Positions 48,969 through 63,072 of a DNA stretch of 64,000 nucleotides are shown piece after piece (the first letter of the stretch is position 1; each line of letters begins with the position of its first letter). The stretch is from Pseudooceanicola nanhaiensis. Lineage in GTDB: Bacteria > Pseudomonadota > Alphaproteobacteria > Rhodobacterales > Rhodobacteraceae. The stretch is from assembly GCF_020171315.1 (NCBI RefSeq), contig NZ_JAIUZP010000014.1, positions 1-64,000 of the forward strand, read 5' to 3'. Made by a program: the position numbers and the translations under genes. Under the pieces are notes generated by a model. The model was given only the letters and a program-made list of their open reading frames with translations, had not been told where the DNA came from and ran no database searches.

Positions 48969-49038
48969 GAGAGCCGAGAGCCGAGAGCCGAGAGCCGAGA
49001 GCCGAGAGCCGAGAGCCGAGAGCCGAGAGCCGAGAGCC
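48969..49038 (+). repeat. tandem repeat, 10 copies of GAGAGCC
   Basis: Ten perfect head-to-tail copies of the 7-mer GAGAGCC fill 70 bases in a non-coding gap. A 7-base unit changes frame at each copy, and the open frames over it are artefacts of the repeat. Perfect identity suggests recent slippage and probable copy-number variation between strains. Confidence 0.95.
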
Positions 49039-49060
49039 GGGCATCGCAGACGGCCCTGAC

Positions 49061-50045: not shown

Positions 50046-50090
50046 GCGCCACGATTCGTATTATGTTAAGAGACAGCCTTCCCCGGGTCT

Positions 50091-50112
50091 GACCTTCCCC
50101 GCGGGGAAGGTC
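50091..50112. repeat. palindrome CTTCCCCGCGGGGAAG, copy 1 (22-bp perfect dyad)
   Basis: The 16-base core is extended by three matching bases on each side to a perfect 22-bp palindrome. It lies 46 bases after the TRIC gene, downstream of parB. It belongs to a seven-member family, six of them within 3 kb around parAB. Confidence 0.9.
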
Positions 50113-50243
50113 GGGGAAGCAGTGGCGCAGGATATGGCTCCCGGAACCGAAGGCGGCCTTGCCCGGCATGGCCCGGCTGTCGCCTCATTCGGAAGCCCAC
50201 GCAGGCGGAACTGACCCTCAGCCCGAGGCCCCAGCCAGCCGGA

Positions 50244-50263
50244 ACCTTCCCCGCGGGGAAGGT
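50244..50263. repeat. palindrome CTTCCCCGCGGGGAAG, copy 2 (20-bp perfect dyad)
   Basis: The core is extended by two bases each side. It lies in the non-coding stretch downstream of parB, about 150 bases after copy 1 and 165 before copy 3. Confidence 0.9.
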
Positions 50264-50347
50264 CCTCCCACCGGGTCGGGTGCCTCGAACGCAAGAGCCC
50301 TACGCGACCGAGAAGGCCTCCCGCCCCGGTCGGGACCCTCAAACGAA

Positions 50348-50376
50348 AGAGACCCCTCCGTGCCGGAGAGGTCTCT
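50348..50376. terminator. hairpin downstream of parB
   Basis: AGAGACC...CTCCG at 50348 pairs with CGGAG...GGTCTCT ending at 50376, around TGC, with one unpaired base on each arm. It lies between palindrome copies 2 and 3, near the end of the parAB operon, and probably ends that transcript. Confidence 0.55.
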
Positions 50377-50408
50377 AATCCCCACAACAGGGTCTGTTTG
50401 ATGACCAA

Positions 50409-50426
50409 TCTTCCCCGCGGGGAAGA
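50409..50426. repeat. palindrome CTTCCCCGCGGGGAAG, copy 3 (18-bp dyad)
   Basis: It lies just 3 bases beyond the parB stop codon. The core is extended by one base on each side. With copies 1 and 2 it forms a downstream cluster with roughly 150-165-base spacing. Confidence 0.9.
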
Positions 50427-50429
50427 CCC

Positions 50430-51620
50430 TCAGTCGAGCTGGTCGAGCATCTTGCGCACCGCCTGTTCCAGCTTGCGCCGGTCAATGGTGGAGAAGTCCC
50501 GATCCAGCCGCAGCTCCAGCCGCCCGTTGGCGGCGGTGCATTTCGCCCGGCCCTCGCGGCGGTCGAACTGGAAGCTGGTCTTGGCCTTACCGGAGGCCGC
50601 GGGCTTGGGCGTGGCGACCCCGGCACGGGCGGGCGGGACATGACCCTCGGCAGGCGCGGTCAGCCCGGCGAAGCGGCGCAGCACCTCCAGCTCTTCCTTG
50701 ACCGAGCGGTTGTCGAGCGGGCCGAGCGCCTCGGCGATGGCCCCGGCCAGACCCTCGACCTCCTCCAGCCGCGCGGCAAGCGCGAGGCCGAGGGCGCGGG
50801 GAATCTCAGGCGCGAATTGCAGCTGCGGACCGATGGCCGCGATCACCCGGATGAAGCTGCGGATGTAGCTGCGCTTCTGGTAGCCGGCGGACTTGAAGAG
50901 CTCGGCCACGGCCTTGTCGGCGTCGCTGGTCGCTGTCTCCGGATCGGCGGCATAATCGATCGCCAGCTGCGCCATTTCGGCAAAGGAGATGTCCTTGCGT
51001 ACGAGGTTCTCATCCACCATCCGGCGATAGAGCGCGTCGAGCCCCTCACCCTTGGGCGTGATCGCGGCGGGGATCGTGGCGTAGCTTTCGTCGCCGGTTT
51101 CCTCCAGCAGCGCGCGGTAGGCCGAGAGGCGGCGGAAGCCCTGGATCAGCTCGTAGCGGCCGCCCTCTGCCTCCTCGACCCGGATCGGGTTCGAGAGGCC
51201 AAGGGCGCGGATGGAATCGCGCAGCTCGCCCAGTTCCTCGTCCGGCCCGGCAGCACGGTCCCGGACCAGCTTGGAGGTGTGGATCGCATCCAGCGGCAGC
51301 AGGTCGACCACGAGGCCGAGTCGCTTGAGGCGGACGTGCTCATGGGCGAGGCGGTCATTCTCGGCACGGATCCGGGCCTCGACCTCGCGGCGTTCGCGGA
51401 GGCTGTCGGCGGTCTCGCCGATGGCCGTGGCCATGGGGCCGCGACGGGCGGCGCGGGGGGCCTCGGCGGGGGCGACCTTCCCCGCGGGGAAGGTCTGCGG
51501 ATCCGGCTCGGCCTTGGCCTCGGGCTCAGGGGCCGGGGCCGGTTCAGCTGCGGGCGCGGCGGAGGGGGTGCTGTCCTCCTCCGGCATGGAGATGTCGAAG
51601 ATGCGGCGTTTGCGGCTCAT
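50430..51620 (-). CDS. parB: ParB-family partition protein
   Basis: This encodes 396 aa from the ATG preceded by GGAGAG; the upstream in-frame extension overlaps parA and was rejected. Residues 1-65 are disordered and Pro/Ala/Glu-rich. Residues 95-175 are the ParB/Srx nucleotide-binding domain (VVDLLPLDAIHTSKLVRD...LSNPIRVEEAEGGRYELIQGFRRLSAYRALLEE). A helix-turn-helix region follows (VRKDISFAEMAQLAIDYAA...AVAELFKSAGYQKRSYIRSFIRVI). It should bind centromere sites and work with ParA in segregating the replicon. A palindrome copy is built into the disordered part, coding Thr43-Phe-Pro-Ala-Gly-Lys-Val49. Confidence 0.92.
   Translation of the reverse strand: MSRKRRIFDISMPEEDSTPSAAPAAEPAPAPEPEAKAEPDPQTFPAGKVAPAEAPRAARRGPMATAIGETADSLRERREVEARIRAENDRLAHEHVRLKRLGLVVDLLPLDAIHTSKLVRDRAAGPDEELGELRDSIRALGLSNPIRVEEAEGGRYELIQGFRRLSAYRALLEETGDESYATIPAAITPKGEGLDALYRRMVDENLVRKDISFAEMAQLAIDYAADPETATSDADKAVAELFKSAGYQKRSYIRSFIRVIAAIGPQLQFAPEIPRALGLALAARLEEVEGLAGAIAEALGPLDNRSVKEELEVLRRFAGLTAPAEGHVPPARAGVATPKPAASGKAKTSFQFDRREGRAKCTAANGRLELRLDRDFSTIDRRKLEQAVRKMLDQLD
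51474..51495. repeat. palindrome copy 4, inside parB (22-bp perfect dyad)
   Basis: The 22-bp dyad is in frame within parB and codes TFPAGKV (residues 43-49) in the disordered N-terminal region, where an insertion would be tolerated. It is identical in length and core to copy 1. Confidence 0.9.
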
Positions 51621-51631
51621 GGCTCTCTCCT

Positions 51632-52927
51632 TCAGACCTTGTCCCAGTTGGCGATGATGTTGTCGCGGAACTCGCCATAGGCGCGGTCGAAACTCTCCCG
51701 GGCGCGGCGCCATGTTTCGCGGGTCATGTCGCGGTAGTCGATCTCGTAGACCGAGCTGAGGAAGCGGCCGGATTGTTCGACGGCGCGGGTCATCTCGATC
51801 GGGTTCTGTGTCACATGATCCCCAAAAACCTTGCGGAAGGCCTCCAGCATCGCGCGGTGCAGGTCGTTGCCGGGCTCGTAGCGCGTCATCAAGAAGCGGA
51901 TGTCGGCGAAGGCCTTGGGCAGGGCGATCTTCCCCGCGGGGAAGTTTTCGCCGAAGCCATGGGCGAGGTCCTCGAGCGCCTCGGAGAGCTGGCCGATGAA
52001 GGAGGTCGTACTGTCGTATTCCCAGTAGCCGGGGCCGGAGGGGATGTAGAGCGCGTCGGCGGCGAAGACCGCGTTCATGGACTGGTACCCAATGGCGGGC
52101 GGGCAGTCGAAGATGATGAGGTCGTAATCGTCATCGCCGAGGCCATCGAGGTAGCGCGACACGGCGGCGAAGAAGGTCCACTCCGGGTTCAGGTGCCGGT
52201 ACTGGGCCGAGGCGAACTCGACGAAGGCGGCGTTGGCGCAGGAGGGGATGATGTCAATCGTGGACCAGGAGGTCTGCTTGATGAAATCGTGGTGGCGCAG
52301 CTCGTCGAGGCCCATGTCGCGGATCGAAGCGGGGATCTTGCGGGCGGGCAGGGCGGTGCCGCTCTCGGCCCCGACGAGGGCCGCGTTCTGGCGGTCGGTC
52401 TCGCGGATCAGGTCGCGGGCCATGATGCCCCAGACGGTGTAGTCCTCGGCCACGTCGGTGAGGCCCATGGAGTGGGAGAGCGTGGCCTGCGGGTCGAAGT
52501 CCACCAGCAGCACGCGGTAGCCGTCGAGGGCGGCGGCATGGGCGAAGTGCAGCGCGACGGTGGACTTGCCGGCGCCGCCCTTGAAGTTGGCGACCGCCGC
52601 GCGGAAGGCGCGCTTGCCGGCGGGGCGGGGCGGCATCAGGCTCTTGCGGTTGATCTTCATGCGGCGGCGCAGCTCGTTGATCTCTTCGAGCGTGTACCAG
52701 CGCTGCCGGCCCTCGGCCTCGACCTCGCCGGAGGGCAGGGAGGGATCGGCGGCGAGACGGCCGCGAAAGGTGGACTGGTTGATGCGCAGGATCAGCTCGG
52801 ACACCTCCCAGGAGGAGAAGCGGCGCAGGGTCTTGCGGCTTTCGGGGCTGAAGGTCTGCTGGCGGATCCAGCCCTGCATCTTGAGGGACTGCGCCTGCAG
52901 CTGTGCGAGGTCTTCGTGGGTGTACAT
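51632..52927 (-). CDS. parA: ParA-family partition ATPase
   Basis: This encodes 431 aa. The N-terminal region (1-105) carries a MerR/HTH-like segment (WYTLEEINELRRRMKINRKSLMPPRP), as in plasmid ParA proteins that repress their own operon. The deviant Walker A is KGGAGKST at 116-123, followed by VLLVDFDPQATLSHSMG and DYDLIIFDCPPAIGYQSMNAVFAADALYIPSGPGYWEYDSTTSF. This large type (Ia) is plasmid- or chromid-like rather than chromosomal. A palindrome copy codes Phe329-Pro-Ala-Gly-Lys333 in a likely surface loop. parB follows 11 bases later. Confidence 0.94.
   Translation of the reverse strand: MYTHEDLAQLQAQSLKMQGWIRQQTFSPESRKTLRRFSSWEVSELILRINQSTFRGRLAADPSLPSGEVEAEGRQRWYTLEEINELRRRMKINRKSLMPPRPAGKRAFRAAVANFKGGAGKSTVALHFAHAAALDGYRVLLVDFDPQATLSHSMGLTDVAEDYTVWGIMARDLIRETDRQNAALVGAESGTALPARKIPASIRDMGLDELRHHDFIKQTSWSTIDIIPSCANAAFVEFASAQYRHLNPEWTFFAAVSRYLDGLGDDDYDLIIFDCPPAIGYQSMNAVFAADALYIPSGPGYWEYDSTTSFIGQLSEALEDLAHGFGENFPAGKIALPKAFADIRFLMTRYEPGNDLHRAMLEAFRKVFGDHVTQNPIEMTRAVEQSGRFLSSVYEIDYRDMTRETWRRARESFDRAYGEFRDNIIANWDKV
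51929..51944. repeat. palindrome copy 5, inside parA (16-bp dyad)
   Basis: The exact 16-base core lies in frame within parA and codes FPAGK (residues 329-333), the same peptide as the copy in parB. It lies between two conserved stretches of ParA. Confidence 0.9.
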
Positions 52928-53033
52928 GCTCGGCCTCTGTTTATCAGGACGTAAATTGTTTCTCACTTTCGAATTACGCTGGTTTCCCGAAAAACGCAAA
53001 AGGGAAGTTCCCCCGAACAGCGTTCTGTGAGAT

Positions 53034-53049
53034 CTTCCCCGCAGGGAAG
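53034..53049. repeat. palindrome copy 6, one mismatch
   Basis: CTTCCCCGCAGGGAAG differs from the core at one base. It lies between parA and the rep gene, at the parA edge of the presumed origin region. Confidence 0.75.
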
Positions 53050-53097: not shown

Positions 53098-53233
53098 GAT
53101 TCCCGGTGATTCCCTCCGAATCCCTGAGTCGCGCCTTGGGGATGACCCCAGATCTAGGGGGACACCACGGGGGCCTCTGCTGCATATTGGGGGACAAAAG
53201 TGCCTGATTAGGGGACACACAGGCTGTCCCCCT
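53098..53233. promoter_or_regulatory. candidate replication origin with two iteron-like series
   Basis: Within the 551-base spacer between parA and rep lie two repeat series. First, GATTCCC at 53098, GATTCCC at 53108 and GAATCCC at 53118, spaced exactly 10 bases. Second, GGGGGACA at 53157-53164 and 53189-53196, AGGGGACA at 53210-53217, and an inverted TGTCCCCC at 53225-53232. Phased short repeats next to a rep gene are typical iterons for initiator binding. The remaining spacer to 53478 has no clear gene and probably holds the rep promoter. Confidence 0.6.
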
Positions 53234-54380: not shown

Positions 54381-55757
54381 TCACCCAGCCCGTTGCACGG
54401 CCGTCTGGGGTTGCGGGATTTCCACCTTCACCCCGGCGTCCAGCAGCAGCTGGTAGATATGCGCGAAGGTCTCGTCCGCGATCATCGTCTGGTGCTTCCG
54501 CTGGCTGAGGAAGCTTTCGACCGGATCGTAGAACTTGATCGCCGCGTCGATGTCCGCGTCGGAGCCCTTGCGATAGGCGCCAAGCCGGATCAGCTCTTCC
54601 ATGTCGGCGTATTTCGCGAGCGTCCGGCGCGCGGCCTGAAGCACGGCGTATTCAGCCTCGGAGTGGCAGTCGGGCAGCATCCGCGAGATGCTCTGATGCA
54701 GGTCCACGGCGGGGAAGCGGCCCCGTTCGGCGATGCGCCGGGCGAGGACGACGTGGCCGTCCATGATCCCGCGCACCGAGTCGGCCACCGGTTCGTTCAT
54801 GTCGTCGCCGTCCACGAGGACGGTGTAGATCGCGGTGATGTCGCCGGTGCCCTCGGTCCCCGGGCCCGCGCGTTCCATCAGTTGCGGCAGCTCGGCGAAA
54901 ACCGTGGGCGGGTAGCCCTTGGAGGTCGGCGGTTCGCCCCCCGAGAGGCCGATCTCGCGCTGTGCCATGGCGAAGCGGGTGACGCTGTCCATGAGCAGGA
55001 GGACCTGCAGGCCCTGATCGCGGAAGTATTCGGCCACAGCGGTGGCGGTCCAGGCGGCTTGGCGGCGCATCAGCGGCGGCTCATCCCCGGTGGAGACCAC
55101 GACGACCGAGCGCGCCATACCCTCGGGGCCGAGGTCCTCCTCGATGAAGTCCATGACCTCGCGGCCCCGTTCGCCGATCAGCCCCACGACGATCACGTCG
55201 GCATCGGCGTTGCGGGCCAGCATGGCCATCAGCGTCGATTTCCCGACGCCGGAGCCGGAGAAGACGCCCATCCGCTGACCACGGCAGAGCGGGGTGAAGA
55301 CGTCGAAGATCTTAATGCCGGTTTCGAGACGGCGCCCGACGCGGCGGCGATCGAAGGCGGGCGGGGGCCCGGCCTTGACCTTGCGGGGATGGTCGCCCTC
55401 GTGCAGCGGGCCCTTGCGGTCCACCGGTTCGCCAAGCGCGTTGATCACCCGGCCGACCCATGCGGAGTGCGGGCGGATCATCTCACCCTGCGGAGAGAAG
55501 GTAACCTCGTTCCCGGTGGTGACGCCATGCCAGGTGCCAAACGGCAGCACATGGGTGCCCTGGTCGTCGATCCCGACCACTTCGCCCAGAACCGGACCGT
55601 GGCGGCCCTGCACGATGCAGCGCTGCCCGATGCCCATGACGCGCTCAAGACCAGTCACGGTGAGGGAGAGGCCCAGGATGGCCTTGACCTCACCAACTAT
55701 TCTTGTTGCATCAAGGTTACGCGCAAACGTAGATAGTTCAGAAAACGGGGTCTGCAT
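54381..55757 (-). CDS. fliI: flagellar export ATPase FliI
   Basis: This encodes 458 aa. The Walker A is GSGVGKST (168-175), with GLIGERGREVMDFIEEDLG, VLLLMDSVTRFAMAQREIGLSGGEPPTSKGYPPTVFAELPQLMERAGPG and DGHVVLARRIAERGRFPAVDLHQSISRMLPD, the F1-beta-like FliI pattern. It energises export of rod, hook and filament proteins. It is alone on the minus strand, divergent from flgB. An octamer TATTCTTG lies within its first codons at 55698-55705. Confidence 0.97.
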   Translation of the reverse strand: MQTPFSELSTFARNLDATRIVGEVKAILGLSLTVTGLERVMGIGQRCIVQGRHGPVLGEVVGIDDQGTHVLPFGTWHGVTTGNEVTFSPQGEMIRPHSAWVGRVINALGEPVDRKGPLHEGDHPRKVKAGPPPAFDRRRVGRRLETGIKIFDVFTPLCRGQRMGVFSGSGVGKSTLMAMLARNADADVIVVGLIGERGREVMDFIEEDLGPEGMARSVVVVSTGDEPPLMRRQAAWTATAVAEYFRDQGLQVLLLMDSVTRFAMAQREIGLSGGEPPTSKGYPPTVFAELPQLMERAGPGTEGTGDITAIYTVLVDGDDMNEPVADSVRGIMDGHVVLARRIAERGRFPAVDLHQSISRMLPDCHSEAEYAVLQAARRTLAKYADMEELIRLGAYRKGSDADIDAAIKFYDPVESFLSQRKHQTMIADETFAHIYQLLLDAGVKVEIPQPQTAVQRAG

Positions 55758-60923: not shown

Positions 60924-62048
60924 ATGGCAGAGCAGGATACCGACAAGGACAACCGCACAGAGGAGCCGACGCTCCGAAAGCTGCGAAAGGCGCGGCAACA
61001 GGGGGACGTCCCCTCCTCGCGGGAGCCGGGCATCCTCATGGGCGTGCTGTCCCTGACGATCATCGCGATGTTCCTGCTGCCGCAGATGGGGCCGAACCTT
61101 GCCGGGGTGCTGGGCAACATCTTCCGCATCGCCGGCACGGTCGAGATCGGCGAGGACCGCGCGGGCCTGCGCGACGTGGGGCAGGTCACGTGGTCGCTGG
61201 CGCGGAGCCTTGGCGTCGTGCTGGGGCCGGTGCTGGTGCTGCTGGTGACCACGGCGATCTTCGGCGTGCTGGTCCAGGGCGAGACGGTGGTGGCCGTCGA
61301 GCGGATCAAGCCCAAGATGTCCAAGATCAACCCGCTGGCGGGGTTCAAGCGCATCTTCTCGGTCGATGCCCTGGTCGAGTTCCTGAAATCCGTGTCCAAG
61401 GTGCTGTTCGTGGGCTCTGTCGCGGTCTGGGTCGGCACCCGCGCCGTGCGCCAGATCTGGCAGGGCGAGGGCATGCTGCCCGAAACGCTGCTGGCCTACA
61501 TCGGGCGGCAGGTGGCCCTGCTGCTGATCATCGTGACCGTCTTCCTTGCGGTGCTCTCGATCGTCGACGTGATCTGGAAGCGGCACCGCTGGATGCAGAA
61601 GCAGCGCATGACGCTTCAGGAAGTGAAGGAAGAGCACAAGGAAAACGAGGGCGATCCGCAGATCAAGGCGCGCCGGATGCAGCAGCGCCGGAAGCGGGCC
61701 AAGCAGCGGATCAAGACCGCCGTGCCGAAGGCCACCGTGATCCTGACCAACCCGACCCATTTCGCGGTCGCGCTGCGCTATGAGCAGGGCACCGACATCG
61801 CCCCGGTCTGCGTAGCCAAGGGCGCGGACCTGATGGCGGCGCAGATCCGGAAGCTGGCGCTGGAGCACGAGGTGCCCATCGTCGAGAACAAGCCGCTGGC
61901 GCGGGCGCTTTTCACCGTGGCCGAGATCGACGAGCAGATCCCGCTGGAGCACTGGCAGGCGGTGGCGGAGATCATCGGCTTCCTCTTCGACCTGAAGAAG
62001 AACGTGGACCGTCGTCCGCCGGAGGGCTCCAGCCTGCGCTTCGACTGA
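60924..62048 (+). CDS. flhB: flagellar export switch protein FlhB
   Basis: This encodes 374 aa. Four membrane segments are followed by the cytoplasmic domain with the autocleavage site NPTH (276-279) in VILTNPTHFAVALRYEQGTDIAPVCVAKGADLMAAQIRKLALEHEVPIVENKPLARALF. The cut between Asn and Pro, triggered with FliK, changes substrate class. It is the last flagellar gene of the window. A hairpin ACTGCCGG/CCGGCAGT follows at 62064-62084. Confidence 0.97.
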   Translation: MAEQDTDKDNRTEEPTLRKLRKARQQGDVPSSREPGILMGVLSLTIIAMFLLPQMGPNLAGVLGNIFRIAGTVEIGEDRAGLRDVGQVTWSLARSLGVVLGPVLVLLVTTAIFGVLVQGETVVAVERIKPKMSKINPLAGFKRIFSVDALVEFLKSVSKVLFVGSVAVWVGTRAVRQIWQGEGMLPETLLAYIGRQVALLLIIVTVFLAVLSIVDVIWKRHRWMQKQRMTLQEVKEEHKENEGDPQIKARRMQQRRKRAKQRIKTAVPKATVILTNPTHFAVALRYEQGTDIAPVCVAKGADLMAAQIRKLALEHEVPIVENKPLARALFTVAEIDEQIPLEHWQAVAEIIGFLFDLKKNVDRRPPEGSSLRFD

Positions 62049-62226: not shown

Positions 62227-63045
62227 ATGACCTTCCAAAAAGATGTCGAGACCCGTTACGGCGGGCTGATGCCCGCAAAGCCGCTGATCGAGGCGACCGC
62301 CGTGATGGAGCAGATGATGTCCCACCGGTCGGTCCGCAGCTACGAGGACCGGCCGCTGCCCGAGGGGATGCTGGAGACGCTGCTGGCGGCGGGCCAGTCG
62401 GGGGCCTCCTCCTCCAACATGCAGGCGATCAGCATCGTCGCGGTGCGCGATCCCGCCCGCAAGGCCGAGCTGGCGGAGATGGGGCGTCAGCCTTTCCTCG
62501 CCACGGCGCCGGTGATCCTGTGCTTCGTGGCGGACCATTCCCGCGCGGCCCGGATCGGCGCGCGCACCGGGGTCGATCTCTTCACGCTGCCCTACATGGA
62601 CAACCTGCTGGCCGCGACCTGCGACTGCGCCATCGTGGCCCAGAACATGGTGCTGGCGGCGGAATCGCTGGGGGTCGGAAGCTGCTATGTCGGCAACCTG
62701 CGCAACGAACCGGCCCGGCTGGCCAAGCTGCTGAACCTGCCGCCGCGCGCGGTGGTGATCTTCGGCCTGACCATGGGCTACGAGGCGCCGCCCGTCACTG
62801 GTGTCCGCCCGCGTTTGCCGCAGGGCGTTGTCCTGCACGAGGAGACCTACAACCGCGACGAGGCCGCCGAGGCACAGATCATGGCGGAGTACGATGCCGT
62901 CTTTGCCCGCCACGAGGCCGGGCAGAACCGCCCGCCGGTCACCTTCTCACAGCGCAACGCCGAGCGCTATGCCAGTGCCGAATACCTGTCGGGCCGGGAC
63001 AAGCTGAAGGCGCAGTTGCAGGACATGGGTTTCCCCCTGCTCTGA
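62227..63045 (+). CDS. NfsA-type nitroreductase family protein
   Basis: This encodes 272 aa. The flavin-binding N-terminal motif is MMSHRSVRSYEDRPLPEGMLETLLAAGQSGASSSNMQAISIVAV, with LLAATCDCAIVAQNMVLAAESLGVGSCYVGNLRNEPARLAKLLNLPPRAVVIFGLTMGYEA and a C-terminal extension as in NfsA/Frp enzymes. These FMN proteins reduce nitroaromatics, quinones or flavins with NADPH. It has no evident link to motility. Confidence 0.88.
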   Translation: MTFQKDVETRYGGLMPAKPLIEATAVMEQMMSHRSVRSYEDRPLPEGMLETLLAAGQSGASSSNMQAISIVAVRDPARKAELAEMGRQPFLATAPVILCFVADHSRAARIGARTGVDLFTLPYMDNLLAATCDCAIVAQNMVLAAESLGVGSCYVGNLRNEPARLAKLLNLPPRAVVIFGLTMGYEAPPVTGVRPRLPQGVVLHEETYNRDEAAEAQIMAEYDAVFARHEAGQNRPPVTFSQRNAERYASAEYLSGRDKLKAQLQDMGFPLL

Positions 63046-63054
63046 TCGGAACCT

Positions 63055-63066
63055 TCCCCGCGGGGA
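63055..63066. repeat. palindrome copy 7, shortened
   Basis: The sequence reads CCTTCCCCGCGGGGATG: a 12-base perfect core (TCCCCGCGGGGA) with one lost base pair in the outer arm. It lies 9 bases after the nitroreductase stop, 10 kb from the main cluster, and resembles a decayed member of the family. Confidence 0.6.
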
Positions 63067-63072
63067 TGAGGG

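Follow-up and report, generated by a model that had tools for sequence, protein, structure and literature searches.

Recurrent palindromes in and around parAB of a DnaA-like plasmid of Pseudooceanicola nanhaiensis: a probable multi-site centromere partly embedded in frame in the partition genes

The partition locus and its palindromes

The window analysed here is a stretch of 64,000 nucleotides from Pseudooceanicola nanhaiensis (assembly GCF_020171315.1, contig NZ_JAIUZP010000014.1, positions 1 to 64,000), in which a palindromic 16-mer, CTTCCCCGCGGGGAAG, recurs in and around the partition genes parA and parB, next to a gene for a DnaA-like replicase (Table 1). The data described below indicate that these palindromes are very probably the multi-site centromere (parS) of a DnaA-like plasmid and, since, besides the sites ahead of parA and immediately after parB, there are some within both genes, part of this centromere would at the same time be protein code. 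The locus has the components of a ParABS system, namely a Walker-type ParA ATPase and a ParB with a ParB_N domain and, according to a predicted model, a helix-turn-helix (HTH). Palindromic sites specific to the replicon lie near these genes, as is characteristic of ParABS.

Scanning of the window yields five exact copies of CTTCCCCGCGGGGAAG and two with one mismatch, six of them (five exact, one near) within 3 kb around parAB and the seventh 10 kb off. A palindrome family at this place had been proposed in a first-pass annotation made from the letters of the window, and it is indeed real; the starts given there for the first four copies (50091, 50244, 50409 and 51474) are those of longer perfect palindromes of 22, 20, 18 and 22 bp, respectively, that extend past the 16-mer, while a decayed copy placed at 63055 is present, with its start at 63053 and a single mismatch. 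Half-site-like motifs, TTCCCC at 50079 and GGGGAA at 50113, flank the first copy. The open reading frame (ORF) 62227-63045, next to the distal copy, is nitroreductase-like by eye.

The palindrome is confined to this replicon. When up to three mismatches are allowed, the window holds 9 matches against 0.87 expected, a number reached in 0 of 100 shuffles. Across the whole genome (4.82 Mb, 30 contigs), all seven places with at most one mismatch are on the contig of the window (C14, 79,718 bp) and inside the window, and a reversed-pattern control gives no match at that threshold; an even spread over the replicons, named in the first pass as the outcome that would speak against a centromere, was thus not seen. 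At two mismatches, six places are listed on other contigs, and at three the 119 matches of CTTCCCCGCGGGGAAG against 93 of the reversed-pattern control are near background. The genome has another parAB, on contig C16, with a palindrome of its own, TTTCGCGCGCGAAA, of which exactly two copies occur genome-wide, both beside that parAB.

Table 1. Coordinates of the features of the partition module in the window
Feature	Position	Strand	Remarks
Candidate parS copy, exact 16-mer	50094..50109	.	Perfect palindrome over 50091-50112
Candidate parS copy, exact	50246..50261	.	Perfect palindrome over 50244-50263
Candidate parS copy, exact	50410..50425	.	Directly 3' of the parB stop, as also in relatives
parB, putative reader of the palindrome	50430..51620	-	396 aa, Pfam ParB_N
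Codons of ParB Y247 and Q248	50877..50882	-	Start of predicted recognition helix; coordinates worked out by hand
Candidate parS copy in parB, exact	51477..51492	-	In frame, FPAGK within TFPAGKV, residues 43-49
parA	51632..52927	-	431 aa, Walker ATPase, AAA_31
Candidate parS copy in parA, exact	51929..51944	-	In frame, codons 329-333 = FPAGK (context NFPAGKI)
Candidate parS copy, one mismatch	53034..53049	.	About 107 nt 5' of parA, a region with copies in relatives too
Four GGGGACA/TGTCCCC repeats, possible replicase iterons	53158..53231	.	Between rep and parA
DnaA-like plasmid replicase	53479..54165	+	228 aa, weak DnaA_N match at C-terminus; replicase role predicted
Distal copy, one mismatch	63053..63068	.	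Shortly past the end of ORF 62227-63045

Recurrence of the sites in relatives

ParB homologues (E <=1e-60) were found in 76 of 295 genomes of the family, the window's own counted. The comparison took in a single locus per genome for the other 75, together with four named plasmids, of which L079 was left out because it duplicates L045. The exact 14-mer core, TTCCCCGCGGGGAA, occurs in 36 of the 295 genomes, that is in 29 of the 76 with a ParB homologue and in 7 of the 219 without (counted from two lists), and many of the remaining loci bear another palindrome type. At least two sites are present in 70 of the 76 loci, and 36 sites are no more than 25 nt away from the parB stop. In five genomes that carry the complete module (identified via named loci) the module holds four copies of the 14-mer each; in four of them the 14-mer is confined to the module, and the fifth has one further copy elsewhere.

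The site inside parA (codon 329) recurs with particular clarity. At least 7 of its 8 palindromic pairs are formed in 66 of 75 parA genes (one of the 76 rows is gapped at the site) and all 8 in 41, the mean being 7.29 pairs against 2.14 (standard deviation 0.87) over 1170 other parA windows, a background that omits residues 55-72 and 320-335. The palindrome occurs there as the types CTTCC, TGTCC, CTTAC/T, TTTCC and GTTCC, both halves being altered together. A second palindrome-rich stretch of parA (amino acid 311, mean 6.53) was set aside; it shows 1 extra pair type where the site shows 7, and is read as a conserved protein stretch.

The palindromes might be merely operators through which ParB or ParA represses parAB, with partition proceeding via another site. 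Autoregulation is common in this class of partition systems, a copy precedes parA in the window, and upstream copies recur in the relatives (49 sites within 250 nt of parA in the 76 loci). However, most copies in these loci are inside or downstream of genes, where an operator would not be expected, and among perfect palindromes of at least 14 bp in the window only that of CTTCCCCGCGGGGAAG recurs. We give a purely regulatory role a slim chance.

Site type and the ParB recognition helix

Copies within one locus mostly share one half-site type. The listing of copies, which was limited to at most two mismatches from the in-parA copy, leans by itself toward one type per locus; the types were therefore counted separately, without reference to that copy. 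The types follow the ParB tree, with 11 changes against 44.1 after shuffling (the types of L039, L057, L061 and L107 were set by hand, as were three or four of them for the derivation of the residue rule described next).

In the ParB model (mean pLDDT 77), for which Noc in complex with its site and operator-bound KorB are among the nearest solved structures, the second helix of the HTH is predicted to begin at residue 247. This residue is Y with the outer triplet CTT, R with TGT, P with TTT and K with GTT, and residue 248 is Q with C at base 4 and T, S or V with A at base 4. The script that set the site types gave a clear one for 119 of 126 ParB rows and none for the other 7; residue 247 fits the triplet in 117 of the 119 and residue 248 fits base 4 in 116. 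On a tree built without the recognition-helix segment, the triplet changes 8 times, residue 247 7 times and the two jointly 8 times, while the corresponding counts are 2 for base 4, 5 for the residue-248 class and 5 jointly. The rule also fits all 45 readable palindromes among 47 further loci, mostly close kin, of which 18 are outside the common YQ/CTTC state; one of them (L190), whose contig is exactly as long as that of the training locus L071, is probably the same record, and without it the count is 44 of 44. The rule had been read off other loci, and the palindromes of L161-L190 and L197-L201 had been seen beforehand, which makes this comparison a held-out but not a blind one. In Sulfitobacter pontiacus DSM 110277, two co-resident plasmids, classed as DnaA-like I and II in a passage of PMC9025767, combine GTTC with KQ and GTTA with KT, respectively. 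Since the palindrome and the two ParB residues change together, their pairing can be predicted and tested. Three loci (L084, L096 and L113) have asymmetric hybrid sites, CTTATCC..GGGTAAG, in which each half is from a different type.

The first-pass annotation had offered as an alternative a small mobile palindrome, REP-like for instance, inserted by chance around parAB and also in frame within genes. Rickettsia palindromic elements do insert in frame in genes, and genomes with an orphan parB hold scattered copies, with 33 exact copies of TTCCCCGCGGGGAA in one (G034, 32 of them chromosomal) and five sites on four contigs in another (G295). In the genome of the window, however, the copies with up to one mismatch are not dispersed but all on one contig, and the position in parA recurs, the halves change as pairs, a locus mostly keeps one type, and the type agrees with ParB residues. 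Moreover, comparison by eye of 20 bp on either side of the seven copies revealed no common flank beyond a few arm-lengthening bases. A mobile element thus stands a slimmer chance still as an explanation.

The same DNA as site and as protein code

The in-frame copies reported in the first pass were found in both genes as described. Among the in-gene sites of the 76 loci, 108 of 118 are in the FPAGK frame, 8 in the LPRGE frame and 2 in the third. Those inside parB are grouped close to the 5' end of the gene and again farther downstream in it; in the ParB model of the window the N-terminal tail and the linker 324-343 are of low confidence, and the in-parB copy falls in the tail, which is modelled as disordered. 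In ParA, the FPAGK stretch is variable in length and sequence among homologues and the other ParA encoded in this genome differs in its residues at that spot, which does not amount to the clean insertion once suspected. The AlphaFold model of ParA is of low confidence (mean pLDDT 57), and no conclusion rests on it.

The peptide at the in-parA site varies with the type of palindrome, being FPAGK, VPAGT, LPTGK, LSADK or FPAGN. Leu at this site is encoded by TTA in 19 of 21 cases, as opposed to 1% of Leu elsewhere in parA, and Thr at position 5 by ACA in 22 of 27, as opposed to 10% elsewhere (L045 omitted); this choice of rare codons argues that it is the palindrome that is kept. The converse idea, that FPAGK is kept for the function of the protein and the DNA palindrome is a by-product, would suit the invariance of P330 and G332 and the near invariance of F329 among 23 ParA sequences (alignment A1), but has next to no chance of being right, given that the residues vary with the palindrome type, that rare codons are chosen, that the same peptides are found at other places in ParA and in ParB, and that the peptide is changed where the palindrome is lost. 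Indeed, FPAGK kept without the palindrome was not seen in these loci: those with at most 5 of 8 pairs have an altered peptide, in which P or G may remain.

Interpretation

The reading of the palindromes as parS builds on what the sequences show: the palindrome is confined to the contig of the replicon, its position in parA recurs, both arms vary in step, codon choice at the in-parA site is constrained, and the type goes with two residues of ParB. The same observations support the earlier proposal of a multi-site centromere with some sites in coding sequence. As parS, the palindromes would take part in ParB binding and spreading, in plasmid segregation and in incompatibility. In particular, ParB dimers produced from the adjacent gene would bind each 16-bp palindrome with one recognition helix per half-site, with the three outermost bases read by residue 247 and base 4 by residue 248; the bound sites would seed a partition complex, which the ParA ATPase would move to the daughter cells. 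A change in ParB specificity would be followed by a change of the sites, whereby the ParA residues encoded there would be rewritten (FPAGK, VPAGT, LPTGK, LSADK).

On balance, and with much more reserve, we also favour a broader reading in which two ParB residues, placed where the recognition helix begins, would form a modular code that sets the centromere type of a whole plasmid family. Because centromere copies lie in frame in parA and parB, each switch of compatibility type would then rewrite the motor protein, and the two genomes in which a ParB without ParA and replicase stands amid scattered sites might represent the start of a Noc-like chromosomal role. In G034, where the copies are often extended as AAACC...GGTTT, the orphan ParB homologue (L089, C1:3419974-3420852) itself contains an in-frame FPAGK site; in the stretches read around it there is no parA or rep, and elsewhere on the chromosome only weak ParA matches occur. 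This ParB is possibly a domesticated, Noc-like protein. In the other genome, G295, a metagenome-assembled genome of Tabrizicola, the second ParB (L168) has no full parA or rep nearby.

Several findings weigh against the centromere reading or the residue code. As regards confinement, these are the seven genomes that carry TTCCCCGCGGGGAA without a close ParB homologue (three have a weaker one and four have none at 1e-8), the chromosomal copies of G034, the copies of the 14-mer away from the parB contig, which among the places listed number at least five in G035 (contig C1), at least three in G032, at least two in G105 and at least one in G027, and the presence of copies on other contigs in some genomes with a complete module. 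As regards the code, there are exceptions for residue 247 in L068 (TTT with A) and L116 (GTT with R) and for residue 248 in L043, L045, L053 and the hand-labelled L039 (all CTTC with S); 27 of the 45 further loci are in the single state YQ/CTTC; and a sign test would need more independent switches than were seen (2 pairs for base 4). As regards the site in parA, fewer than 7 pairs are formed in 9 of 75 loci, in some of which the palindrome is gone (D. shibae pDSHI02, with a partial parA match, is one), the copy is absent from both S. pontiacus plasmids, and in L064 and L116 it differs from the other copies of the locus. Being missing in some loci, the in-parA copy is therefore not indispensable.

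All in all, the linkage of two ParB residues to the DNA site, and hence to plasmid compatibility, provides a directly testable rule, and the locus offers a clean natural case of the same DNA being centromere and protein code. If the reading is true, the centromere type and the likely incompatibility could be deduced from the sequence for plasmids of a widespread family.

Neighbouring features

The replicase gene is divergent from parAB, and its product has a DnaA_N match (E 6.8e-5, 22.9 bits) under the Pfam cut-off of 24.6; to judge by this weak similarity and by the gene arrangement, the replicon belongs to the DnaA-like plasmids. The gene order is identical in named plasmids, including M. 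algicola pMaD5, where a gene is annotated as DnaA-like-I. Identity as a repABC replicon was considered and rejected, as the profile scores are below the cut-offs (ParB 37.5 bits against 201.5 for RepB, ParA 217 against 348 for RepA) and the replicase next to parAB is DnaA-like; no search was aimed at RepC itself.

The GGGGACA/TGTCCCC repeats between rep and parA recur with their spacing in relatives, at least two being present in 61 of 69 loci examined, although this 7-mer is also the half-site of the TGTCC parS type, whose upstream copies inflate the count in the loci concerned. Their presence whatever the parS type suggests that they are possibly replicase iterons. Further along the window, a FliI-like ORF (54381-55757) and a FlhB-like ORF (60924-62048), both named by eye, suggest that the replicon carries flagellar genes. 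A perfect tandem repeat with the 7-bp unit GAGAGCC (10.1 copies) occupies 48969-49039.

Comparison with known systems

A parS inside a gene is known from B. subtilis, where it is located in spo0J. As for the DnaA-like (I/II) modules of Rhodobacterales, which have the same gene order rep - parA - parB as the window, Petersen et al. in 2011 reportedly named conserved palindromes as probable centromere anchors and distinguished two compatibility groups. Palindromic anchors in these plasmids would accordingly be prior knowledge, and the apparently new part is the recurrent dual coding, in which half-sites and peptide covary, together with the ParB residue code; neither was found in a search of open PMC articles, a weak guide to novelty, and Petersen et al. 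2011 may contain some of it.

For chromosomal ParB-parS and Noc-NBS, changing the site specificity takes just a few residues at the DNA interface, as described in part of PMC7383237. The window is similar in that a few predicted interface residues track specificity and in that the ParB model matches the structures of Noc with its site and KorB with its operator; in contrast, the site is a different one.

The closest parallel in site architecture is provided by the repABC replicons, whose parS, according to passages of PMC9040568 and PMC5613091, are palindromes of 14-16 bp in several copies near or in the partition genes, some lying at the 5' end of repB, others in ORFs that follow; in those passages the palindromes of RepABC-1 and RepABC-2 are a single reciprocal exchange apart. 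The sites of the window are likewise palindromic, in several copies and near or inside partition genes, and in-gene parS are described for repABC replicons (PMC9040568, in part). Unlike in the window, the parS of Rhodobacterales repABC replicons tends, in the sources as consulted in part, to be found in the repB-repC interval or 3' of repC, and the replicase is RepC rather than a DnaA-like protein. The consensus of repABC parS is given in an excerpt of PMC9040568 as GTTNNCNGCNGNNAAC. The window 16-mer departs from it, by eye, solely at the outermost base pair and so does not itself match, and the GTTC type seen in relatives, GTTCCCCGCGGGGAAC, fits it. Together with the RepA and RepB matches below cut-off, this fit suggests that the two centromere families share an origin, and the likeness to repABC thus makes the parS reading of the palindromes stronger and at the same time less novel.

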